From NCBI RefSeq assembly GCF_003664325.1, contig NZ_RCDA01000004.1, positions 1-64,000 of the forward strand: a DNA stretch of 64,000 bases. The letters run 5' to 3'. The notes under the pieces were generated by a model that searched no databases, had not been told where the DNA came from, and saw only the letters and a program-made list of their open reading frames with translations. This stretch comes from Alkalispirillum mobile (GTDB lineage Bacteria; Pseudomonadota; Gammaproteobacteria; Nitrococcales; Halorhodospiraceae). Below, piece by piece: positions 33,354 to 44,462 of the stretch (position 1 is its first letter; every line of letters starts with the position of its first letter). Position numbers and translations under genes: made by a program.

Positions 33354-35141
33354 TCAAGCCCCCTGATCGCTGAACTGCACCCGGTGCAGCGAGGCGTAGG
33401 CGCCATTCTTCCGGAGCAGTTCCTCGTGGGTGCCCGTCTCCACGATACGGCCCTGGTCCAGCACCACGATCCGGTCAGCATCCTCGATGGTGGAGAGCCG
33501 GTGGGCGATGACCAGCGTGGTGCGCCCGCGCATCAGCTCCTCCAGGGCATCCTGGATTTTCTGCTCCGACTCCGAGTCCAGTGCGGAAGTTGCCTCGTCC
33601 AGGATGAGGATGGGTGCGTTCTTCAGGAGTGCGCGGGCGATGGCGATGCGCTGGCGCTGACCGCCGGAGAGCATCACGCCGTTCTCGCCGATGACCGTGT
33701 CGAACCCGTCGGGGAGTTGCTCGATGAATTCCAGCGCATTGGCGGCCTGGGCCACTTCCCTCAGCTGGGCCTCGGTGGGCTTTTCCGCCAGACCGTACGC
33801 AATGTTATTGGCCAGCGTGTCGTTGAACAGCACCACCTGCTGATTGACCAGGGAGAGTTGGGCGCGCAGGTCCTGCAGGCGGTATTCCGGCAGCGGGTGG
33901 CCATCCAGCCGGATCTCCCCCTGCTGCGGTTCGTAAAAGCGGGGCAGAAGGCCCGCGAGGGTGGTTTTGCCGCTACCGGAGCGACCCACCAGGGCGACGG
34001 TCTGGCCCGGTTCGATGTTCAGGTTGATGTCTCGCAGCACCCAGTCATCGGACTCCGGGTAGCGGAATGCGACCCCGTCGAATTCGATCCGTCCGTCAGC
34101 CCGGTCAAGTCGGAGCTGCCCTGCATCAGGCTCCGGCGGTGCATCCAACACCTCGAACACACTCTCACCCGCTGCCAGAGCCTTCTGGATCTCGGCGTTT
34201 ACGCCGACCACCCGCTTCAGCGGGGGGAGCATCAGCAACATGGCGGCGATAAAGGAGATCATGCCCCCGGGCGTGATGGTCTCCAGGATCACGTCCATGG
34301 TGGCCAGATACAGGATGATGGCGAGGGCGATCACAGCGCCAAGTTGCGCGAGCGGCTGGCTTGCGGCCTGTACCGCCTTGTAGCGCATCAGCTGGCGGTG
34401 GTGGCGGGTGTTGGTTTTGTCGAAGCGTTCCGCCTCGTAGCCCTGCGCCCCGAAGATCTTCACCTCGGCCTGCCCGCGGATACCATCCTCGGCGATTTGC
34501 GCGTACTCACCCACGGAGGTCTGCATCCGGCGACTGAGCTTCCGGAACCGCTTGTTGGCGGCGGTGACCACCACGGCCACCAAGGGGCCCAACCCGAAAA
34601 CAATCAGCACCAACCACCCACTGAGGTAGGTCATGTAGGCGAGCAGGAAGATCACTGTGAACGTGTCCCGGACCAAGACCACGATGGCCTTGGAGGCCGC
34701 CGCGCTGATTTGGTTGACGTTGTAGGTGAGCTTGGCCAGCAGTGTGCCGGGCGAGTTCTTGTCAAAGAAACTGGTGGGCAGCCGGAGGTACTGCTCGAAC
34801 ACGGCCTGGCGCACGTCCTTGACCACACGGCGCCCCACCCAGGCCACGGTGTAGTCGGAGGCAAAGGTGGTGGCGCCATGGAAGAGAAAGATGCCGACAA
34901 GCGCGGCTGGCACCCAGACCCGAGCGCTAGGGTCCTGCTCAATGAAGGTGCCATCGACCAACGGCTGAATGATCCACGCGAAGGCCGCCTGCCCGGCCGC
35001 AGCCAGGATCATGCAGACGATCGCCAGCACGCCGAGCCGCCAGTACGGCTTGATGAAGCCGAAGATGCGCTTGTAGAGGTGCCACGAGTTCTCGGACTGG
35101 GGATGGGTCGGCTTCTTGATCTGCGGGCTTGCCGTCGTCAT
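33354..35141 (-). CDS. msbA: Lipid A export ABC transporter MsbA
   Basis: The protein has 595 residues from ATG 35141, chosen because it overlaps the preceding stop as ATGA. A six-helix exporter domain (about 30-310) is fused to an ATPase with Walker A LVGRSGSGKTTLAG, signature LSGGQRQRIAIARALLK and Walker B ILILDEATSALD. MsbA flips core-lipid A across the inner membrane. The gene lies among LPS genes and is translationally coupled to a ParB-like protein gene. Normal length. Confidence 0.95.
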   Translation of the reverse strand: MTTASPQIKKPTHPQSENSWHLYKRIFGFIKPYWRLGVLAIVCMILAAAGQAAFAWIIQPLVDGTFIEQDPSARVWVPAALVGIFLFHGATTFASDYTVAWVGRRVVKDVRQAVFEQYLRLPTSFFDKNSPGTLLAKLTYNVNQISAAASKAIVVLVRDTFTVIFLLAYMTYLSGWLVLIVFGLGPLVAVVVTAANKRFRKLSRRMQTSVGEYAQIAEDGIRGQAEVKIFGAQGYEAERFDKTNTRHHRQLMRYKAVQAASQPLAQLGAVIALAIILYLATMDVILETITPGGMISFIAAMLLMLPPLKRVVGVNAEIQKALAAGESVFEVLDAPPEPDAGQLRLDRADGRIEFDGVAFRYPESDDWVLRDINLNIEPGQTVALVGRSGSGKTTLAGLLPRFYEPQQGEIRLDGHPLPEYRLQDLRAQLSLVNQQVVLFNDTLANNIAYGLAEKPTEAQLREVAQAANALEFIEQLPDGFDTVIGENGVMLSGGQRQRIAIARALLKNAPILILDEATSALDSESEQKIQDALEELMRGRTTLVIAHRLSTIEDADRIVVLDQGRIVETGTHEELLRKNGAYASLHRVQFSDQGA

Positions 35142-35770
35142 TCGAGTGCGTCTCGTAGCGCTTCCGGATGTGCCTTGAAAACATCGAAATGGCTCAGAAG
35201 CCACCGTGTGTGTACAGTCATTACAGCGAAGGGCACCGCTTCCAGGCCGAGCAGCTGTGCCGCCGCCAGGCGATGGTGGCCATGCTTTTCCTTGATGAGC
35301 GTACCATCTCGGCCGATTGCCAGATTGAGCGGGCCGGCCCTCTCCAGATCATAGCCCCGGTCTGCCAGACTACGGATCAGCTCGCTGATGCCCTGGAAGT
35401 GACCGATCACGCCCGCCTCGCCGGTGAACGTTCTGCGCCCGCCATGCCCGATATTGGCAGAGCCTTTGCGCTGCAATGCCTGCATCGCCCGTCCAAAACT
35501 GGCGGTGCGTTCGTAGGCCAGGTCGGCATCGTGAACCTCCTTGACCGCCAGGTAGGCCTCGTGGTCCGCGAAGGGCGATATGTATCGGTCCCAGCGTCCC
35601 CGGCGGGCGGGCCAGGCCAGCCCCGCGACTTCCAGCCCGGTCATCCAGCGCCACCATTCAGGCGGCCTGCCCCGTATGAACCGCACCCGCTCTGGCGGCA
35701 GGTGAATCACAGGTGCCCTATCTTTGTATGGCTTGAGTGGCCGGTCTTTCCAGATCGCGTCCGCCTTCAT
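35138..35770 (-). CDS. ParB/sulfiredoxin-fold protein with GxWD motif, coupled to msbA
   Basis: The protein has 210 residues from ATG 35770 (GAGG upstream; longer versions would run into the divergent glycosyltransferase gene). I do not recognise a named family. Two blocks stand out. GRWD at 58-61 is followed after a few residues by P and DH. Around 152-181 there is an IGRDGTLIKEKHGHHR segment continuing LAAAQLLGLEAVPF, which resembles the ParB/sulfiredoxin nucleotide-binding loop (G-x-H-R). Between them is a basic helical stretch. The gene overlaps msbA by 4 bases. It shares both motifs with the protein at 39133-39843. Function unknown; perhaps a nucleotide-dependent factor in glycan assembly. 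Confidence 0.75.
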   Translation of the reverse strand: MKADAIWKDRPLKPYKDRAPVIHLPPERVRFIRGRPPEWWRWMTGLEVAGLAWPARRGRWDRYISPFADHEAYLAVKEVHDADLAYERTASFGRAMQALQRKGSANIGHGGRRTFTGEAGVIGHFQGISELIRSLADRGYDLERAGPLNLAIGRDGTLIKEKHGHHRLAAAQLLGLEAVPFAVMTVHTRWLLSHFDVFKAHPEALRDALE

Positions 35771-35874
35771 GCAGTCATGGCCGCCTCGGGGCCGTTCTCG
35801 TGGTTGCAAGCCCCCCATGCTAACATTGCGACCTTTATACTTTCTCCCCCTTGCATCGTGCCTCGGAGTGTTCC

Positions 35875-36714
35875 ATGTCAGAGCCCGTTTTCGTTCCCGG
35901 CCGCATAAGCATTTCCATCCCCCATTGGCAGGTTCTGCCGCTGTTGCAGCCTTGCCTGCGCTCCATCCGGAAACACACACCGGGAAAAGACATCGAAGTC
36001 ATCGTTATCGATAACGGGTCCAAGGATGAAAGCCTGGACTATCTTCGCTCGCTGGAATGGATCCGGCTGATAGAGCGTCCGGACGAGGGCCTTTTCAACT
36101 TCCCGGATAACGTCTGGACCTCGCACGACATTGCCCTGCACGAGGCCACGGGGGAGTTCCTGGTCACCATGCACACGGACTTGTTCGTGAAGCGTGATGA
36201 CTGGCTCGATGAGTATTTGAAAGCCATGAATGAAGACGATCGCCTCGGCGGTGTCGGCACCTGGAAGCTCGAGCTCAAGAACCCCATTTATGAATTCCAG
36301 AAAAGGGTTATTCATGTCGTCCGCAGCAATATAAAGTATGCGCTGGGGCTGCGCAGCAAGAAGTACGAATGGAAACAGGGACACTACCCCAAAGACTTTT
36401 GCGCCATGTACCGCCGGAAGATCTTGCTCGATGAAGGCCTGACATTCCAGAGCGTCAACGGCCCGAAGGGTTTTTATGACCAAAGTGGGGGCTATTCGAT
36501 ATCGGCCCAACTTTGGGACGCCGGGTATAATACCAAGGTGATCCCCGTGCAGACCATGATGCCCCGGATTGTTCATCTGGGTCATGGGACTGCAGCGGTC
36601 TCCCCGGAGAAGAGTCACCGCCGAAACCAGGAGAAGCTGGAAAACCGCCGGGATTCCCTGTTCGACGAGCCGTGGCTGAAAGAATTGCAGACGAACGAGC
36701 AGCTTGATAAATAA
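35875..36714 (+). CDS. Family 2 glycosyltransferase
   Basis: The protein has 279 residues from ATG 35875 (GGAG 6 bases upstream). The GT-A fold is recognisable: ISISIPHWQVLPLLQPCLRS, VIVIDNGSKDESLDYL, and HTDLFVKRDDW as the nucleotide-sugar/metal site near residue 100. The donor and acceptor sugars are unknown. It is followed after 5 bases by a GT4 gene in the same direction, and composition here is less GC-rich, fitting a variable outer-core or O-antigen locus. Confidence 0.88.
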   Translation: MSEPVFVPGRISISIPHWQVLPLLQPCLRSIRKHTPGKDIEVIVIDNGSKDESLDYLRSLEWIRLIERPDEGLFNFPDNVWTSHDIALHEATGEFLVTMHTDLFVKRDDWLDEYLKAMNEDDRLGGVGTWKLELKNPIYEFQKRVIHVVRSNIKYALGLRSKKYEWKQGHYPKDFCAMYRRKILLDEGLTFQSVNGPKGFYDQSGGYSISAQLWDAGYNTKVIPVQTMMPRIVHLGHGTAAVSPEKSHRRNQEKLENRRDSLFDEPWLKELQTNEQLDK

Positions 36715-36719
36715 CTGCC

Positions 36720-37829
36720 ATGACAAGCCGAGTTATCGTCTCTGTGCTGACGCCCAGGCAGGGGTACGGCCCGCGATCCCACGGGGCGATCGCGCTCGAC
36801 ATTCACGAGTGCCATGGGCGTTCGAAATACGGTAACCACTGGGTTTTCGGAACCGAGCCAGGGCCGTGGTTCGAGCCCGAGTGGTTCGTCCAGATCAAGA
36901 AGCGGTGGCCTTGGCAGAATCACACCGAGGGTCAATACGCAGCCCGTATGATACCCCGGCTCAGGAGCATCAACCCCGACCTCATCGAGGTCCACAATAG
37001 CGGGACGGTCGCGGAGTTTCTGGCGGAAAAGCTGGATGTGCCCGTTGTTCTATTCCTCCACAATGACCTGGCGGCGACGTCCGGGTACGCGCACCCAAGG
37101 GACCGACAGCGGGTTGCGGATAAGGTCGCCGGCCTCTTCTTCGTAAGCGATTACCTCCGCGGGCGCTTCCTGGAAAACGGCGTCCAGGCAAGGGGCCTGG
37201 TCCGCGTCGTATACAACGGTGTTCATTGGCCGGAAACGGTGCCGCCCGAGGAAGGCCGGAAAAAACAGATCGTCTACGTCGGGCGAATTCATGAGGAGAA
37301 GGGGGTGTTCAACCTCATGGATGCACTACCTGACGTGTTCGCGCGCCATCCCGACTGGACGGCGACCGTGATCGGGCCGCCCAGCTACAGAAACATGGGC
37401 AGGAAAAACAAGCGCGTGCGCCGGTTCCAGGGCCTCCTGCAGCGCATGCAGCAGCGCGTGCGACATTTTAATTTCCTTCCACAAGAGCAGGTCAGCATAA
37501 TCCTGCAGACCTCTTCGGTTGCAGTCACGCCGGCTGTTTGGTGCGAGCCCTTCGGGCGAACCTCCGTCGAGGCCATGGCGAACGGCGTTCCGCTGGTCTC
37601 ATCCAGACGAGGCGGGTTGCAGGAGGTCCTCTCGGATGACTGCGCGATTATCATTGACCCTGAGTCCCCGGACTCGATCCGTGATGGAATCGAGCGTTTG
37701 ATTGCATCGTCGTCCCTGAGAAGAGAGTACGGTGACTCAGGAAGGCGCCGTGCCCGGGACTTCTCGATCGAGAACAGCGTCAAATCTCTTGACGCCGCCC
37801 GTGACGACCTATTCGCCAGTATTCTGTAA
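36720..37829 (+). CDS. Family 4 glycosyltransferase
   Basis: The 369-residue GT-B protein has an N-terminal acceptor domain and a C-terminal donor domain with IVYVGRIHEEKGVFNLMDAL and EPFGRTSVEAMANGVPLVSSRRGG, the GT4 nucleotide-sugar motif (E-x7-E). The sugar is unknown. It is probably co-transcribed with the preceding GT2. Its last 21 bases overlap the end of the convergent ligase gene. Confidence 0.88.
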   Translation: MTSRVIVSVLTPRQGYGPRSHGAIALDIHECHGRSKYGNHWVFGTEPGPWFEPEWFVQIKKRWPWQNHTEGQYAARMIPRLRSINPDLIEVHNSGTVAEFLAEKLDVPVVLFLHNDLAATSGYAHPRDRQRVADKVAGLFFVSDYLRGRFLENGVQARGLVRVVYNGVHWPETVPPEEGRKKQIVYVGRIHEEKGVFNLMDALPDVFARHPDWTATVIGPPSYRNMGRKNKRVRRFQGLLQRMQQRVRHFNFLPQEQVSIILQTSSVAVTPAVWCEPFGRTSVEAMANGVPLVSSRRGGLQEVLSDDCAIIIDPESPDSIRDGIERLIASSSLRREYGDSGRRRARDFSIENSVKSLDAARDDLFASIL

Positions 37830-39059
37830 AGCCCCGACGCGGCGGTTGGCGCGAGCCGTCATCGCCCGGTTTATCTGCGCGCCAATAATCAGACCGACGG
37901 GAAGCCAGTAAAGCAGCCAGGTGGTGTTGGGGCTTCTCAGGAAGTCGCGGCTGGTGAAAAGCATTGCGATGAGGCCGAAAACCATCAGCGACAAGAGCAA
38001 CCAATTTCTGCTTCTGGCGCCAATTCTGTATGCGGCAAGCAAAAAGTACGTGGTGCATATGAGCCAAAGAGACAGGCCGACAAAGCCGGTCTGGAGCAAA
38101 AGATAAAGCACCACGTTGTGGGGGTGGCCATATATTCTTGACCCCGTATCGAGCTCAAATTCCGCAGTGCGACCCTGTCCGAACCAGGGAGCCTCCAGAA
38201 CCTGGCGCCAGGCATCGGCCCATATGGCCGGACGCGCGCCGGCACCTCTTTCCAGAAATCCCCTGATGGAGCCCCACAACTCGACGGAGACAGTGACGAG
38301 CACGAGTGCCAGGGCAATGCAGACCAGCGTCTTCCAGCTGCGGTGCAGCGCCAGCAGTGTTGTCAAGGTGACTGCCAAGGCAAGAATCGCCCCCCGCGTC
38401 TGGGCCAGAACCAGGAATGCGAGAAGAATGCTTGCTGAAACCGCTAAAGCTGTCAGGTAGGCCGGGGCGAGGCTGCGCCGGGTGCTCGGTTGTAAAAGCA
38501 AGACTAATGATGCGGTGGCGAAGACGCCGTACATGTTCGCGCCTAGGGTCTGGACTTCTCCATGTCGACTCAGGGCGGGCACCCTAGAATAAGGGAAGGG
38601 ATTGTTCTGATAATGGATCAATAGGGTCGCGAATGCAATGGCGGCCACTAGCAGCACGGAATAAAGCAGTATTCGTTCCACAGTCCAATGGCTATCGCAT
38701 ATCACCGTCACGATAAGAAGCAAAAAAGACATGACGAGCAGGAAGTAACGGATCATGTCATAGGCGTCATCCGCCAAAGAGACCGAAGACCACAAGGCGG
38801 ATGCCGCGGTGAAGCCGAGAAAGCACGCCACGATGACCCAAGGCAGCTTATGGTTGAAGGCCCCGGGAATTCTCTTGGTGATAACAAGATAAGCAATCGG
38901 CAAAAAACTCAATAAATAATATAAGTTTCTGTGGTGTCCCCGATCCTCGAAAACGAAAAAACCAGCGAGGAAAAAGATGAGGACCAAGGCGAAGTAATTG
39001 GCCTTGGTAAACCAGGCGAGTTCGGCTTTCAGGGCTTGAGTGGTTGTGGTCCGATTCAT
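37809..39059 (-). CDS. waaL: O-antigen ligase / Wzy-type polymerase
   Basis: The 416-residue polytopic membrane protein has about ten to twelve helices. A large periplasmic loop before the last helices contains WFGQGRTAEFEL and YGHPHNVVLYLLLQTGFVG, the conserved Wzy_C/WaaL motif with its histidine. It would attach O-antigen from undecaprenyl-PP to lipid A-core, or polymerise repeat units. Distinguishing WaaL from Wzy by sequence is uncertain; location at the end of the waaF-waaG-kinase operon favours WaaL. The gene is relatively AT-rich for this genome. Confidence 0.82.
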   Translation of the reverse strand: MNRTTTTQALKAELAWFTKANYFALVLIFFLAGFFVFEDRGHHRNLYYLLSFLPIAYLVITKRIPGAFNHKLPWVIVACFLGFTAASALWSSVSLADDAYDMIRYFLLVMSFLLLIVTVICDSHWTVERILLYSVLLVAAIAFATLLIHYQNNPFPYSRVPALSRHGEVQTLGANMYGVFATASLVLLLQPSTRRSLAPAYLTALAVSASILLAFLVLAQTRGAILALAVTLTTLLALHRSWKTLVCIALALVLVTVSVELWGSIRGFLERGAGARPAIWADAWRQVLEAPWFGQGRTAEFELDTGSRIYGHPHNVVLYLLLQTGFVGLSLWLICTTYFLLAAYRIGARSRNWLLLSLMVFGLIAMLFTSRDFLRSPNTTWLLYWLPVGLIIGAQINRAMTARANRRVGALQNTGE

Positions 39060-39132
39060 GGGATTCTGGCAATGGTCCTAGGATTCGCAAGTCCGGATCG
39101 ATGAACGGTTTTTTGATCCCGGTCCGGGCAGG

Positions 39133-39843
39133 TTATTCCCGCGTGTCGTGCCGAAGTTTTCTGAGGGCCTTTTTGGATGAGGCGGCCTGCTCGTGCACCA
39201 AGCCGAGTTGCGCGGGGATGACAGGTATATCAAGAATCTTGCAAATGGCGAACCGGTGGCAGCCTTTTCCGCCGAATATCGGTCGCCCAAACCGGTCAAT
39301 ATGTATGTAGACGCCGCTATCTTCCCGGCTCGAGGCCTGATTGAGGAACTCGGCGCTTGTCTTGAGTCTCCTTGTCTCTTTTAGTTCGGAATAGAGCTTA
39401 TCAATCTCTTCCAGTCGCCTGGAAATCTCGGCCCAGCTCCTCCTGCCATCCGCGCTGCCCCTTTTGTCCAGGAGCTTTTTTGCATGTTCTATCGCACCAG
39501 CTTCTTCCCACGACTGACCGCGTACGAACCTGTTGATGCAATAGCGCACCTTTGGATGCTCGTCCAATGGCTTTACCTGCAAATCCCAGTTCCCGGAAAG
39601 GACGCGGCCCGTGTCACTGCGGCTGGGGCTGCGTTGTGCGTAGGTTACCACCGCCGAGGGCGCTATGAAGATCCTCTCCGCGGCCCTCGGTGCGTGCCAT
39701 CCGAAGAGCAGGGCATTTTTTGCGTCTCTTCGCAGGTGCTTCAGCTGTTTCCTTGAAAAAATCACGAGATGTTTTGCTACTGAGATAATGCGGCGGCCAG
39801 TTGCGCCTCCAGCCGTTTCCGCGAGAATTGTTTGTTCGACCAC
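39133..39843 (-). CDS. ParB/sulfiredoxin-like protein with GxWD and GCHR motifs
   Basis: The frame has up to 236 residues from GTG 39843; it overlaps the preceding glycosyltransferase by 67 bases, so the start is uncertain and may be further in (for example GTG 39765). GNWD (84-87) is followed by P-x3-H and then RYCINRFVRGQSWEEAG. A charged helical part follows. Near the C-terminus is IDRFGRPIFGGKGCHRFAIC (continuing KILDIPVIPA), with GCHR at 194-197. GCHR is the sulfiredoxin-type loop, with cysteine in the position of its catalytic residue. This is the same architecture as the protein at 35138-35770. Function unknown. It lies inside the LPS operon between a GT4 gene and waaL. Confidence 0.75.
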   Translation of the reverse strand: MVEQTILAETAGGATGRRIISVAKHLVIFSRKQLKHLRRDAKNALLFGWHAPRAAERIFIAPSAVVTYAQRSPSRSDTGRVLSGNWDLQVKPLDEHPKVRYCINRFVRGQSWEEAGAIEHAKKLLDKRGSADGRRSWAEISRRLEEIDKLYSELKETRRLKTSAEFLNQASSREDSGVYIHIDRFGRPIFGGKGCHRFAICKILDIPVIPAQLGLVHEQAASSKKALRKLRHDTRE

Positions 39844-40916
39844 TCCGCACCACGCGCCCCCAGGCGGGCTCTCTCGGTCGCGGGCTTGCTTAAAATAGTC
39901 GCCATCTTGCGGGCAAGGTCGTCCGGAGATCGCCGACCGGCGATAAGCCCGTATTCGCCGATGACCTCGGGTGTCCCGCCACCGTCGACACCGATAACGG
40001 GTAAATGCGCGGCGCGCGCCTCAAGAAAGACCCGCGCGAAATTGTCACCCTCGGACGGTAGCACGAAGCAATCGAACGCGCGCATGCAGCGGGCCGCATT
40101 CGGGATTTTCCCGGTAAGCAGGACCCAATCCCGCAGCCCCAGTGCCTGGACGCGCGCCTGAATCCTGCACTCTTCGCGTCCGGTGCCAACGATCACCACC
40201 CTGAATTCGTATCCCGCGTCACGGAGAATCGCAGCGGCCTCCACGAGGTCAACCAGGCGTTTGTAGCGGTCGAACCTGCAGACGGTGCCAAAGGTGAACA
40301 GGTCACCTGCGATGTCCAACGTACGTTGGGCCTCTTCCCGGGAAAAGAGGCTGGCCGCCAGTCTCTCCGAGTCCAGGAAATTGTTAACCACCGAGACGTG
40401 CTCTTCGGAGACCCAAGGCATCAGGGTGAGTACCTTGGACCTCTGTGCCTGGGTCAGAGTGATAAAACCCGTGATACGGCTAGCGAACAGCCGGTAGAAG
40501 TGTCGCCGGCTGCGGGAGGAAACGGCCTGGAAGCCACGCAACAGAGCAATCAGCTGAGGTCGTTCCATCATAGGCAACACGGTTGCCAAGGTGCCCGTAG
40601 TGATGGCCTTATACTGGTCACAAACCAAGGTATCAATGGGATGGCCAAGCAACCATCGCCGGAATGCTCGGGCTGCGCCGATACGGCTCCCTGACAAAGC
40701 GGAGGCAGGCAGCCTCAAACCGCTGACATGATCCGCTTCGTCCTCGACCTTGAAGGAGTCCGGATCACCGGACAGGAGGCACGCGGTGACCGTGGCGCCC
40801 AGTCGGCGCAATGCGGCCATCTGCTGGCGGACATTGGGGCCGACCTCACCAGGCGTTTCCAAGAGGTAGGCCACCCGACGTCTGTTCAGCGGGCGTTCTG
40901 CTGGATCGTCGTTCAT
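39777..40916 (-). CDS. Family 4 glycosyltransferase
   Basis: The protein has 379 residues from ATG 40916; a longer frame to 41042 would overlap the neighbouring GT9 gene and looks non-coding. Features: RRVAYLLETPGEVGPNVRQQ at the N-terminus, FTFGTVCRFDRYKRLVDLVEAA and LPSEGDNFARVFLEARAAHLPVIGVDGGGTPEVI (donor-site E-x7-E). It belongs to the GT4 family, sugar unknown. It starts 28 bases after the upstream GT9 gene and overlaps the downstream ParB/sulfiredoxin-like gene. Confidence 0.88.
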   Translation of the reverse strand: MNDDPAERPLNRRRVAYLLETPGEVGPNVRQQMAALRRLGATVTACLLSGDPDSFKVEDEADHVSGLRLPASALSGSRIGAARAFRRWLLGHPIDTLVCDQYKAITTGTLATVLPMMERPQLIALLRGFQAVSSRSRRHFYRLFASRITGFITLTQAQRSKVLTLMPWVSEEHVSVVNNFLDSERLAASLFSREEAQRTLDIAGDLFTFGTVCRFDRYKRLVDLVEAAAILRDAGYEFRVVIVGTGREECRIQARVQALGLRDWVLLTGKIPNAARCMRAFDCFVLPSEGDNFARVFLEARAAHLPVIGVDGGGTPEVIGEYGLIAGRRSPDDLARKMATILSKPATERARLGARGAEWSNKQFSRKRLEAQLAAALSQ

Positions 40917-40944
40917 CGCGTGCGGTTTCGTTTGTTTGCCCAAG

Positions 40945-41946
40945 TCAGAGGGCCTGGGTGATAGCGTCAGTGACGGCTTCCAACGGGATGCTGTCCATCC
41001 GTCGGCCATCTTGAACGTGCTTTTTGCCTTCTTCCGGGGCAATCGGTTCAGTGCCCCGGATGAGGGTGCGCTTTTCCGTCAGTGGACCCCATCGGGCCGG
41101 GTCGGTGGGGCCAAACAGGCCAATGATGGGAGCGCCCGCTGCAGCGGCCAGGTGCATGGGCCCGCTGTCGTTGCCTATGAATAGCCGACACCGTTCCAAT
41201 CGGGCAATGAGCGTACCCAGAGAAAGCTGTTGCACCAAGTCGATGGGCTGCTGCTTGCAAAGGGCCTTCACCGCGTCTGCCGAGGGCCGATCGGGCCCAG
41301 CCCCAACAAGCGTCGGGCGGAGCCCTTGATCGTACAGCCAATCGCAAAGCGAGGCATAACGGTCCAGGGGCCAATGCTTGTACCCCTTACCCCCTGCGAC
41401 GTGCAGGCAAACGATGGTAGCTGGGTCCGGCAATGCCTGGGCCTCGAGTTCCCGACGATCTGAGCTCGTCGCGCTTACCACCGGCCAGCCCCATTTCCCG
41501 TTTAGACCCGCCGCCTGGGCGAGCGTGCCGTAGGTATCAATACGGTGGCTTCCATTAGCTGGATGCTCTGCGTGCCGATTGTACAGGCCGGCGCGGGGTT
41601 TGCCCTTTCTGCAGATCCGTAGGGGCGCGCCCGAAAGCCCGCCGAGTAAAGCGCCGGTGTTGCTGCCGCCAAAATCCGCTATCCATGAGGGCTTGGTGCC
41701 ACGCACCGTGCGCAATGCACGCAGGAATTCGAGGCCCTTCTTTATCCCATTGCCGGTACCCTGAAGCTGCACGCATGGCTCGGGAAAACCCGGAATACGC
41801 TGCGCCAACGCCCAGTGTGAGGCGTTGATCACCGCTTGAGTCCCGGGCTTCTCACGGGCGATGTGGGTGAGCACAGGGCTGGCCACCAGAAAGTTGCCTA
41901 GGTGGCGGTCCAGCATTATGAGAAGGGGAGGATTATCGTCGCTCAC
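40945..41946 (-). CDS. Family 9 glycosyltransferase (heptosyltransferase-like)
   Basis: The 333-residue protein starts at GTG 41946. It has the GT9 N-terminal block LLIMLDRHLGNFLVASPVLTHI and the C-terminal HVAGGKGYKHWPLDRYASL and IGNDSGPMHLAAAAGAPIIGLFGPTDPARW. It transfers ADP-heptose or a related sugar to the LPS core; the ordinary G-D acceptor motif reads R-H-L-G-N here. It overlaps the upstream kinase-like gene by 14 bases. It may be a third heptosyltransferase. Confidence 0.85.
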   Translation of the reverse strand: MSDDNPPLLIMLDRHLGNFLVASPVLTHIAREKPGTQAVINASHWALAQRIPGFPEPCVQLQGTGNGIKKGLEFLRALRTVRGTKPSWIADFGGSNTGALLGGLSGAPLRICRKGKPRAGLYNRHAEHPANGSHRIDTYGTLAQAAGLNGKWGWPVVSATSSDRRELEAQALPDPATIVCLHVAGGKGYKHWPLDRYASLCDWLYDQGLRPTLVGAGPDRPSADAVKALCKQQPIDLVQQLSLGTLIARLERCRLFIGNDSGPMHLAAAAGAPIIGLFGPTDPARWGPLTEKRTLIRGTEPIAPEEGKKHVQDGRRMDSIPLEAVTDAITQAL

Positions 41947-42763
41947 AATGGTTCTTTTGTCGGTCTCGGTCGGGAGTGGGTTGGGCTGCCAAGTATACCG
42001 GGGGCCGGCCGTACCGTTTCTGGTGGGCGGCGCTGATGCGCTCGATTGATCGCTGGACCCGCCCGATCAGCCCCTCGGGGCGCAACGCCCGCCCTGCTGC
42101 ATAATGCTGAATGACCCCATGGGCCCAGTGTTGGTCTAGGCCCAGTTCCAGCCCACTGACCAGGAAGCGTGCCAGGTCCTGTGTGGCTGCGTTGAGTCCC
42201 ACCCGGGGCTTGATGCGGGCGCTGTCCAGATCCGTGATGATGACCCGGGCGTTCTGTACCAGCAAATTTCCCCACTTCAGGTCGCCATGCACCACGCCGG
42301 CATCATGCAGGCGGATTAACTGATCGACGGCGGTCTTGCAAAGCCCGGTGGTCTTGGACGTCGCTGGCCCTGACTGTCGGACAGCTGCCTCCATTGTTGC
42401 CGCCCCCATGATCGCCTCGCTCAGATACCAGGATGTGTCCTGTCCCCAGATTGCGGCATGGGGCGCCGGGATGGCCACGCCGTGGGCCTGCAGTCGTTGA
42501 GCGACTCGCCAGTTCCGGTTCACCCGATCCCGGACGGTCATCCGTTGGAGCGCACCGGCCCACGGATTATTAGGGAATCGCTTGAAGAACAGCGAAGTAG
42601 AGCCGAGGCTAATAAAGCCGCTGCAGACCTTCTTGTTCTTTTTGATGACCTTCAGCGTGGCGCCTGGCGGCGGCCAGCGGCCCCCATCAAGGGCTGCGAG
42701 GGCGGGCGAGTCGGGCGAGCAGGCGTACTGAAAGCCGTGGCCCTTACCCCGAATGGCTCTCAC
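41933..42763 (-). CDS. LPS core kinase-like protein
   Basis: The 276-residue protein (GTG start overlapping the upstream stop as GTGA) has a kinase fold: SLFFKRFPNNPWAGALQR with the ATP-binding lysine, NRNWRVAQRLQAHGVAIPAPHAA, the catalytic loop VVHGDLKWGNLLV and the DFG-like ITDLDSARIK. All key residues are present, so it should be active. It is one of three consecutive kinase-like genes; it probably phosphorylates a core heptose or another sugar. Somewhat less GC-rich than genes to its right. Confidence 0.85.
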   Translation of the reverse strand: MRAIRGKGHGFQYACSPDSPALAALDGGRWPPPGATLKVIKKNKKVCSGFISLGSTSLFFKRFPNNPWAGALQRMTVRDRVNRNWRVAQRLQAHGVAIPAPHAAIWGQDTSWYLSEAIMGAATMEAAVRQSGPATSKTTGLCKTAVDQLIRLHDAGVVHGDLKWGNLLVQNARVIITDLDSARIKPRVGLNAATQDLARFLVSGLELGLDQHWAHGVIQHYAAGRALRPEGLIGRVQRSIERISAAHQKRYGRPPVYLAAQPTPDRDRQKNHCERR

Positions 42764-43605
42764 GGCTTTGCCTCACGGTGGCCAGGCTGGAAACGAGGCT
42801 TGGGGCCGCCACGCGCCATGCGTCGGGCCCAGCGCTGCTGACGACCGCTCTCCACGTTGCGAGCCAGTCGCCGATAACTGGCCCGGTCGAGTTTCATACC
42901 CTCTGCGTAGCCCTGCAGCATGCGCAGCTGGTCCGTGCGGCTCTGGTGGTCCCGTCGAGTCATGGCCAGTTGGACGAGGTTACGGTCTTGATCCTGCGCT
43001 TTTGCGCTGCGGTGGCTGCCCTCATTGTCCAGGTACCAAAACTCCGCTGCCTCAAGTCCCCCTTGCAGATCGCATAACACGTTGCCCAGGCGCAGGTCGC
43101 CGTGAACCCAGCCGGCCTGATGCAAGCGGGCGATTTCGGCACCGAAACGCCGGAGCAAACACCACCGCGACTTCAGCTCCAGGCGTGATGGGCCCGAGGC
43201 GCAGGTGACCAGGTCCACCATGGCGGGATGGGGTACGGCCTGGGTGAGGACGAACTCCAGGCGCGGATTGGCGCGGCCGTAGGCCAGCACGGGCGGGGTT
43301 GGGAAGCCATCCCGGCTCATCTGGATGGAGCGATCCACCGCGCGGGCACCGCGGCTACCGCGGCCCAGGGCCTTCAGTTCCTCCAGGCGATGACGGGGCA
43401 GCAGCACCTTGAGAAAGACAGGTTGCCCCTGCCATTCGCCGCGGGCCACACGGGCCTGTGCGGAACTGCCCAGAAGGGTCCACCCGGCGGGCGGATTGCC
43501 CTGTGCCAAGGCCCGTGCGCAAGCCTGCAGGTTAGGGTGGTCTCCAGCGTTCGGGAGCAACCGGGGTGCCAGTCCCAGCCATTGCAGCAGGCGATAAGAC
43601 TTCAT
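42760..43605 (-). CDS. LPS core kinase-like protein
   Basis: The protein has 281 residues from ATG 43605, which overlaps the upstream waaP stop as ATGA; the longer frame reaching 44202 is the shadow of waaP. Kinase features are FLKVLLPRHRLEELKAL (ATP-site lysine), the catalytic loop WVHGDLRLGNVLCDL and YLDNEGSHR as the metal-binding aspartate block. It probably phosphorylates the LPS core, like its neighbours. The exact position and sugar are unknown. Confidence 0.84.
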   Translation of the reverse strand: MKSYRLLQWLGLAPRLLPNAGDHPNLQACARALAQGNPPAGWTLLGSSAQARVARGEWQGQPVFLKVLLPRHRLEELKALGRGSRGARAVDRSIQMSRDGFPTPPVLAYGRANPRLEFVLTQAVPHPAMVDLVTCASGPSRLELKSRWCLLRRFGAEIARLHQAGWVHGDLRLGNVLCDLQGGLEAAEFWYLDNEGSHRSAKAQDQDRNLVQLAMTRRDHQSRTDQLRMLQGYAEGMKLDRASYRRLARNVESGRQQRWARRMARGGPKPRFQPGHREAKP

Positions 43606-44462
43606 AACGGCGGTGCCTTGGGCGCTTTGCCATGCTCCCGCCGGTACTGCCAGCGTGCTCGTTCTGCTACCTGCTGCCAGAACCTGCCATGCGCCGCCAG
43701 TGTCTGCCGAAGGGTTAGGCCCTGGTAGGCACGCATGAAACGTAAGATATCCCGTCGGGTCAGCCCGATATCCAGCGCCGAGAAGTACAGTCCGCCGATA
43801 TCCTTTACCCGAGCACGTTCCGGTAATTGCTTGTGGCGCTGAACCCGGTGCAGGTCCATCAGGTGCAGTCGCGGCGGGCGTGCCCCCGAAAGCACGGCGG
43901 CCTCGTCCTGGTTCAGGTCCAACCGGAAATGGCAGAGGTAGAAGTCCCGGTGGTTCATCCCGTCCTCGTGCAGGGCACGGGCGATTCGCGCCACCTCCCG
44001 GATCAGCGCCAGTTTGAAGCGGAAGGCGGGCGGATGCTCCGGCCACCGCAGGCACTCCTGCTCCAGGGTGCGGGTGCGGCCAAGGTCTCGGGTGATCACG
44101 AAAGAGCGTTCCCTGGCCGGGTTGAGCCCCCGGCGCAGGCCAAAGGCCACCGGCGGCGTGGTGGGTATGCCCAGCGCCTGCAGCCGGTGTATGGCCCGCC
44201 ACTCCGGTTCGGCCCCCAGCACCGGGACTCGAAACTGCGACAGCTTGCGCAGAATCCGTCCCCAGGGCATGCCGGTGTGCACCTTGGCGAAGTAGGTGAG
44301 GCCGCCCAGCTCGAAGCGGAAGGTGCGGCGGCCATCCACGGCGCGCACCACCTCCCCGTCCAGGGCCATCACCTGCTCGAAGGGATCGCCCGGGCCAAAC
44401 GCGGCCTGCAGCGCGGCCCGGAAGTCCGGGTCCAGCACCATCTCGTCCCTCCTCGGTTTCAT
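43602..44462 (-). CDS. waaP: LPS core heptose kinase WaaP
   Basis: The 286-residue protein follows the WaaP/RfaP pattern. YFAKVHTGMPWGRILRKL carries the ATP-binding lysine, EWRAIHRLQALGIPTTPPVAFG comes next, then the catalytic loop MNHRDFYLCHFRLDL and the metal-binding HLMDLHRVQRHK. It phosphorylates heptose I of the inner core, which strengthens the outer membrane. It overlaps waaG by ATGA, as in the classical waaG-waaP order. Confidence 0.93.
   Translation of the reverse strand: MKPRRDEMVLDPDFRAALQAAFGPGDPFEQVMALDGEVVRAVDGRRTFRFELGGLTYFAKVHTGMPWGRILRKLSQFRVPVLGAEPEWRAIHRLQALGIPTTPPVAFGLRRGLNPARERSFVITRDLGRTRTLEQECLRWPEHPPAFRFKLALIREVARIARALHEDGMNHRDFYLCHFRLDLNQDEAAVLSGARPPRLHLMDLHRVQRHKQLPERARVKDIGGLYFSALDIGLTRRDILRFMRAYQGLTLRQTLAAHGRFWQQVAERARWQYRREHGKAPKAPPL

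Follow-up and report, generated by a model that had tools for sequence, protein, structure and literature searches.

An uncatalogued protein family with a predicted ParB/sulfiredoxin fold, largely linked to envelope genes, conserves a GxHR loop but not the cysteine within it

Results

The gene studied here (the target; Table 1) encodes a member of an uncatalogued protein family, which has no name and is predicted to have the ParB/sulfiredoxin, i.e., ParB-CTPase, nucleotide-binding fold. It is located in the window, by which we mean the whole 64,000-nucleotide stretch of Alkalispirillum mobile DNA that was analyzed (contig NZ_RCDA01000004.1, positions 1 to 64,000), and its ORF reads ...YIHIDRFGRPIFGGKGCHRFAICKIL... 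in translation. Our main reading, to which we give a probability of roughly 0.37, is that the protein may serve envelope-glycan synthesis as an NTP-dependent enzyme, perhaps as a phosphotransferase that acts on small molecules or sugars. In such an enzyme, the GxHR loop, placed at the start of a helix, would hold the phosphates of an NTP or NDP. The residues around the loop, i.e., the family-wide His217 together with Arg143 and Asp148 of the target's subfamily, would form the substrate site, to which Asp132 and His181, nearly always present in the subfamily, may also belong. The acceptor of a phosphoryl or similar group would be one of the small building blocks from which the LPS outer core or O-antigen is made, be it a sugar, an alditol or an amino acid. 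The transfer would resemble that carried out by SerK and SbnI, two serine kinases with the ParB fold.

Table 1. Positions of the target, its motifs, its neighbors and its paralogue in the window
Feature	Position	Strand	Basis or remark
Target ORF, ParB/Srx-fold family protein	39133..39843	minus	GTG start, 236 aa as called
Alternative target start	GTG at 39765 (in frame, codon 27)	minus	Would give 210 aa
G194-C195-H196-R197, GxHR phosphate ("P") motif, Cys195 at the variable x	39253..39264	minus	Conservation and alignment with ParB GERR
His217, end of last strand, nearly invariant	39193..39195	minus	Broad family 44/45, subfamily 35/35
GxWD (G84-N-W86-D87), conserved N-terminal family motif	39583..39594	minus	G 39/43, W 40/44, D 34/44 (rows with a residue)
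GT4-type glycosyltransferase, upstream neighbor of target	39777..41042	minus	Glycos_transf_1, 2.8e-28
O-antigen ligase (Wzy_C), downstream neighbor of target	37809..39059	minus	1.8e-19
Paralogue with GHHR (residues 234-237, window 35270-35281)	35138..35980	minus	ORF and 12-row alignment

Gene cluster, start codon and paralogue

The original prediction described the target as surrounded by glycosyltransferases in an outer-core cluster, and a domain scan agrees that it lies within LPS core/O-antigen genes. The ten window proteins scanned comprise one GT2, two GT4/GT1-type and two GT9 proteins, two Kdo/WaaP-type kinases, one Wzy_C ligase, one ABC transporter, which is probably MsbA-like, and one protein without a match. 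The two Kdo/WaaP kinase-family matches fall at 41933-44462, making this a kinase-rich LPS core cluster. The G+C content of the target and the O-antigen ligase (37809-39843) is about 55%, compared with 66.7% for the window; deviating G+C is frequent in exchanged surface-antigen genes.

The in-frame GTG at 39765 is perhaps the true start of the target. This is plausible because it lies only 11 bases past the stop of the upstream gene, the target model has low confidence before about residue 31, and the subfamily rows begin aligning near residue 31. No ribosome-binding site was clear enough to favor either the called GTG or the one at 39765.

Immediately upstream of the MsbA-like transporter gene (33354-35204) is the gene for the paralogue, whose true start may fall downstream of the called GTG. 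The paralogue carries GHHR where the target has GCHR, as had been predicted. The two proteins are distant, with 19% identity in the 12-row alignment, and the tree places the paralogue outside the target's subfamily. When 71 residues of the paralogue were searched against PDB sequences, neither ParB nor sulfiredoxin chains were among the matches.

Neighborhoods of relatives

The genes flanking family members point to glycan synthesis in many hosts. Two genes on each side of 33 loci gave 127 proteins, among which, counting matches from the top 25 Pfam families and with a gene caller that may include spurious ORFs, there were 20 Glycos_transf_1, 7 Wzy_C, 7 Sulfotransfer_2, 5 Glycos_transf_2 and 2 Kdo kinase matches. 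The set left out L065, L068, L081 and L083, as well as L090, L092, L094, L095, L102 and L104, at which the simple gene caller did not call the family gene. As background, eight genomes hand-picked from those with family members, about 25.6 Mb in total, hold 97 Glycos_transf_1 matches, so that about 0.5 would be expected among 127 genes; the enrichment is indicative only, because genes within one cluster are not independent.

The same flanking proteins held three Sulfotransfer_1 matches besides those to Sulfotransfer_2, which suggests sulfated glycans in some hosts, and a motif scan for sulfotransferases gave only three candidates. We did not adopt a sulfotransferase as the common partner of the family; there was none among the ten window proteins scanned.

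A different setting is seen in f215, a further order of the phylum, where the gene adjoins that of a MurD-type ligase at four loci (L140, L141, L145 and L154). An HI0933-like flavoprotein also adjoins it at L140, L145 and L154, the subfamily genes stand in tandem pairs at L140 and L145, and FtsW and MurG-type genes occur further along L145. Over 16 subfamily loci, mostly from this order, 13 Mur ligase and only 2 Glycos_transf_1 matches were found among 95 neighbors (three genes on each side; 16 of 19 loci used, with L146, L147 and L155 dropped because the family gene was not called). The Mur-ligase neighbors therefore indicate an association with envelope genes generally, and not with glycosyltransferases alone.

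Some haloarchaeal relatives are found in surface-polysaccharide clusters. Two from Halobaculum lie beside a Gfo/Idh/MocA oxidoreductase, an epimerase and a flippase, and one from Natronorubrum lies near AglF and O-antigen ligases. The relatives in Natrarchaeobaculum, Natrononativus and DL31 showed no clear glycan cluster.

Conserved residues and the proposed function

The GxHR loop most likely corresponds to GxxR, the phosphate-binding signature of proteins with the ParB-CTPase fold. A survey of that fold names GxxR the P motif and describes published tests in which changing its arginine to alanine abolished nucleotide binding (PMC12704722). The family carries this motif (Box II) almost without exception: among 48 distinct rows of the broad family, R197 is kept in all 48, and G194 and H196 are each kept in 47. 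The tetrapeptide GCHR is not significant alone, since a six-frame translation of the window contains it 4 times; judging from the alignments, the significance lies in the G-x-H-R frame that the family conserves. The loop histidine itself is not universal, as two Halobaculum relatives carry GRNR; one further haloarchaeal protein has GNHR. These three proteins stand outside both column counts, i.e., the 48-row and the 35-row ones.

The nearest subfamily conserves considerably more. G48, W112, R143, D148, G194, H196, R197 and H217 are present in all 35 rows, and D132 (33/34) and H181 (34/35) are near-invariant. In the broad family, R143 (R in 9/47), D148 (D in 17/47), D132 (D in 4/38) and H181 (H in 7/48) are poorly kept. 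Because these four residues vary family-wide, a family-wide active site would rest only on GxHR, His217 and GxWD. Judged from these columns, the substrates may differ between subfamilies, or the predicted site may have been misjudged.

This variability slightly lowers the phosphotransferase reading and slightly raises its main rival, namely that the protein is a non-enzymatic nucleotide switch whose ParB-like fold binds NTP and thereby regulates or scaffolds a neighboring glycosyltransferase or O-antigen ligase. Such a role would suit the position of the target gene between the GT4 and ligase genes and the small number of charged residues conserved across the whole family, and the survey describes the ParB-CTPase fold as a recurrent nucleotide switch (PMC12704722). 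However, the near-invariant R143, D148, D132 and H181 of the subfamily look more like a substrate site, and no partner binding is known. We regard the switch as a serious but doubtful possibility.

The phosphotransferase reading draws on SerK and SbnI as precedents, i.e., ParB-fold kinases that act on small molecules. SerK is a ParB-fold enzyme that transfers phosphate to a small molecule (PMC5120207), SbnI is named as a ParB-fold kinase (PMC12704722), and these free serine kinases represent the stand-alone ParB fold as an enzyme (PMC12704722, PMC5120207). SbnI is among the fold matches of the family, and the likeness is one of fold; the target's family differs in being found in envelope-glycan clusters. 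Points against a phosphotransferase are that single fold matches are weak, that the subfamily profile only ties the best shuffled control (see below), that some relatives are not clearly in glycan clusters, that Glycos_transf_1 matches are few around the mostly f215 loci, and that the loop histidine is missing in the two Halobaculum proteins with GRNR.

Fold evidence and comparison with ParB

Computation supports a ParB/sulfiredoxin fold for the family. AlphaFold models were obtained from a 12-row alignment (pLDDT 73.6, pTM 0.68) and a 42-row alignment (pLDDT 88.4, pTM 0.82), and both retrieved mainly sulfiredoxin, ParB, Noc, KorB and SbnI, every match being weak alone. A Foldseek search against the PDB gave no match at E≤0.001, the best being sulfiredoxins at E 0.15; with the 42-row model, the top 12 rows were all ParB/Srx relatives. 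VIA-align, which only re-aligns Foldseek's own matches, listed ParB/Srx relatives in 20 of 24 entries, including the top 19. Its Z scores, for which about 5 is middling by the tool's scale, were 5.3 for sulfiredoxin 6ky4 (85 aligned residues, rmsd 4.8), 4.8 for ParB 7bnr (82, 4.7), 4.3 for Noc 7ng0 (84, 4.4) and 4.2 for SbnI 5ujd_A (84, 4.0), with sulfiredoxin and ParB in effect tied. The fold alignments span residues ~55-223 with only ~85 matched, and the model helices at 97-157, inside this span, look like an insert of about 60 residues.

A profile comparison with hhalign led to the same superfamily. The 46-row family profile aligned with 30 ParB proteins, taken from related genomes and chosen for a GE[RK]R-type motif, with a score of 36.8 (E 2.1e-5), and G-x-H-R was paired with GERR. 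None of 60 column-shuffled controls reached this score (maximum 22.8), and the reversed control scored 13.1. The subfamily profile alone scored 22.8 (E 0.0093), equal to the best shuffle, with the same loop aligned. Although the fold scores are middling singly, the two models agree and the profile comparison is independent of structure, which together point to the ParB/Srx superfamily. The original guess that the loop resembles the nucleotide-phosphate loop of the ParB/sulfiredoxin fold thus gains support from both the fold searches and the GxHR/GERR pairing.

Searches with sequences and single profiles were less informative. Pfam and NCBIfam gave no confident model for the target or the paralogue, and a single-sequence search of the PDB with the target returned nothing usable. 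A profile search of PDB sequences gave only chance matches, from E 0.31 up, and two further ones were topped by repeat proteins (pentatricopeptide in one, Pizza or NHL in the other) that matched over many short stretches. In the search topped by Pizza/NHL, the rows with a single stretch begin with ParB (7bnk, E 0.24; 7bnr, 0.31; 7o0n, 0.34; Spo0J 6sdk, 0.48) and SbnI (1.4), none of them significant. Pfam ParB_N matched none of the 46 members at E≤0.1 and one of 32 C-terminal pieces (E 0.035). The commonest PHROG match was phrog_6218, a ParB-like partition protein family of phages, found with 8 of the 46 members (best 2.5e-7); unlike these, the target itself had no PHROG match at E≤0.1, and its gene stands in a glycan cluster.

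The family resembles the ParB N-terminal domain (PF02195) in the profile match and in the placing of GxHR on the GERR/GxxR P motif. It differs from ParB in that it lacks the ParB_N match, has H in place of the first R of GERR, and carries the predicted helical insert. The only ParB_N match of the genome at E≤10 lies elsewhere, on contig C6, so the target is not the ParB of this genome.

A DNA-binding ParB-type regulator of the LPS cluster would have the same fold, which the DNA-binding proteins VirB and Noc share according to the survey (PMC12704722), as does KorB judging from PDB titles. However, Pfam gave no HTH domain in the target at E up to 10, a search whose filters drop most weak matches; the model helices lie inside the fold, the model ends soon after it, and family members occur in very different gene clusters. 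We therefore consider such a regulator improbable.

The weak individual fold scores, the missing ParB_N matches and the tied subfamily profile could also mean that the likeness to ParB/Srx is due to chance and that the family has another ancestry, but this is very improbable, given that two models and a sequence-only profile comparison agree on the superfamily and that the comparison yields the same loop.

Cysteine 195

The target does keep G-C-H-R within FGGKGCHRFA, as the original prediction stated and the ORF translation confirms (residues 190-199, window 39247-39276). It was proposed from this that the cysteine could have a special role in redox or phosphoryl chemistry, with conservation among close homologues as a check. 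At the x position of the loop, cysteine is found in only 2 of 48 rows of the broad family, where the column reads R 8, H 7, L 7, Q 6, T 5, S 4, N 4, C 2, F 2, Y 2 and K 1. In the nearest subfamily it is found in 3 of 35 rows (N 9, M 8, H 4, A 4, C 3, Y 2, I 2, V 1, R 1 and F 1), a count that takes in the target itself and some partial sequences; the other two cysteines come from two proteins of a single different genus. When the 33 other subfamily rows were compared with the target, identity reached at most 43%, over 189 aligned residues, and the four closest relatives measured (43%, 42%, 42% and 41% identity) have N, Y, M and R at this position. What is conserved is thus the histidine and arginine of the loop, and not Cys195.

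On the tree, the cysteine label needs two changes, and none of the 200 bootstrap trees could be explained by one; if just the well-supported branches are considered, however, only one is forced. The tree agrees with a non-catalytic cysteine; two origins are not proven. Judging from the alignments, Cys195 is probably a tolerated side chain at a variable loop position, and we rejected it as a catalytic nucleophile because it is conserved neither in the family nor in the subfamily.

A sulfiredoxin-like chemistry confined to the target, with Cys195 as a redox or phosphoryl-accepting nucleophile, would account for the G-C-H-R letters at the loop and for sulfiredoxins such as 6ky4 among the best fold matches; the cysteine also recurs in the two rows of another genus, and 3/35 exceeds the 1.3% cysteine content of these proteins. 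These points are outweighed by the variable column and the two changes on the tree. Furthermore, unlike sulfiredoxin, the target has an envelope-glycan gene context, its FGGKGCHR is two residues longer than the FGGCHR loop that the prediction quoted, and no peroxiredoxin was found among the ten window proteins scanned. Repair chemistry of the sulfiredoxin type is very unlikely, since Cys195 is not conserved, and the same holds for any cysteine-based redox reaction; phosphoryl chemistry at the loop, without the cysteine, may still take place.

Extent of the family

Relatives extend to other orders and into archaea. With the target as query at E≤0.1, matches, some of them weak, were found in 8 of 12 genomes of its own taxonomic family, its own genome included. 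At E≤1e-4, the 12-row alignment matched 10 of the 370 genomes from the class, of which three showed short weak stretches only, and 18 of the 397 from the phylum; at E≤1e-3 it matched 15 of 95 relatives. All three counts include the target's own genome, and the three genome sets overlap. The target-subfamily alignment had matches in two other orders, in 4 of 341 genomes of one and 22 of 341 of the other, seed genomes included. Further distant relatives are carried on haloarchaeal plasmids, and a scan of genome contigs for close orthologues gave one distant relative in Pelagibacteraceae. In one genome of the same taxonomic family (G002, contig C1), five family matches lie within about 130 kb (330-459 kb).

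One scan of viral contigs (1 of 8) gave no close orthologue. In a phage collection, the paralogue as query retrieved 27 records, all from Microbacterium phages at E 0.04-0.1, and those listed are annotated as ParB-like nucleases.

Discussion

The insight into the fold in the original prediction is right, its argument from the cysteine is wrong, and the indication of redox chemistry does not hold. What remains is an uncatalogued, largely envelope-linked ParB-fold family. The survey describes the ParB-CTPase fold as known for DNA segregation, from which side branches lead to the phosphorylation of serine and the repair of peroxiredoxins (PMC12704722). The survey searched with PF02195; because our family has no PF02195 match at E≤0.1, it may lie outside the survey. 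Searches of the open-access literature turned up no report of such a ParB-fold family at polysaccharide loci. In the survey, nucleotide binding in vitro was absent in 17 of the 28 ParB-fold proteins that were purified (PMC12704722), which weighs against the phosphotransferase reading.

It is conceivable, though on balance unlikely, that the family represents a widespread and unannotated class of ParB-fold, NTP-dependent enzymes, marked by a helical insert, whose role would be to modify or prime the glycans of the envelope in several settings. If so, they would act on the LPS core, and perhaps on sulfated polysaccharides, in the phylum of the window and on surface polysaccharides among the haloarchaea; in one further order, their genes lie in a peptidoglycan/division cluster beside the MurD-type ligase, sometimes as tandem pairs. 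A ParB-fold family linked to envelope glycans in bacteria as well as archaea would extend the known uses of this fold to a new area, and the family would offer a tractable set of proteins for nucleotide-binding tests.
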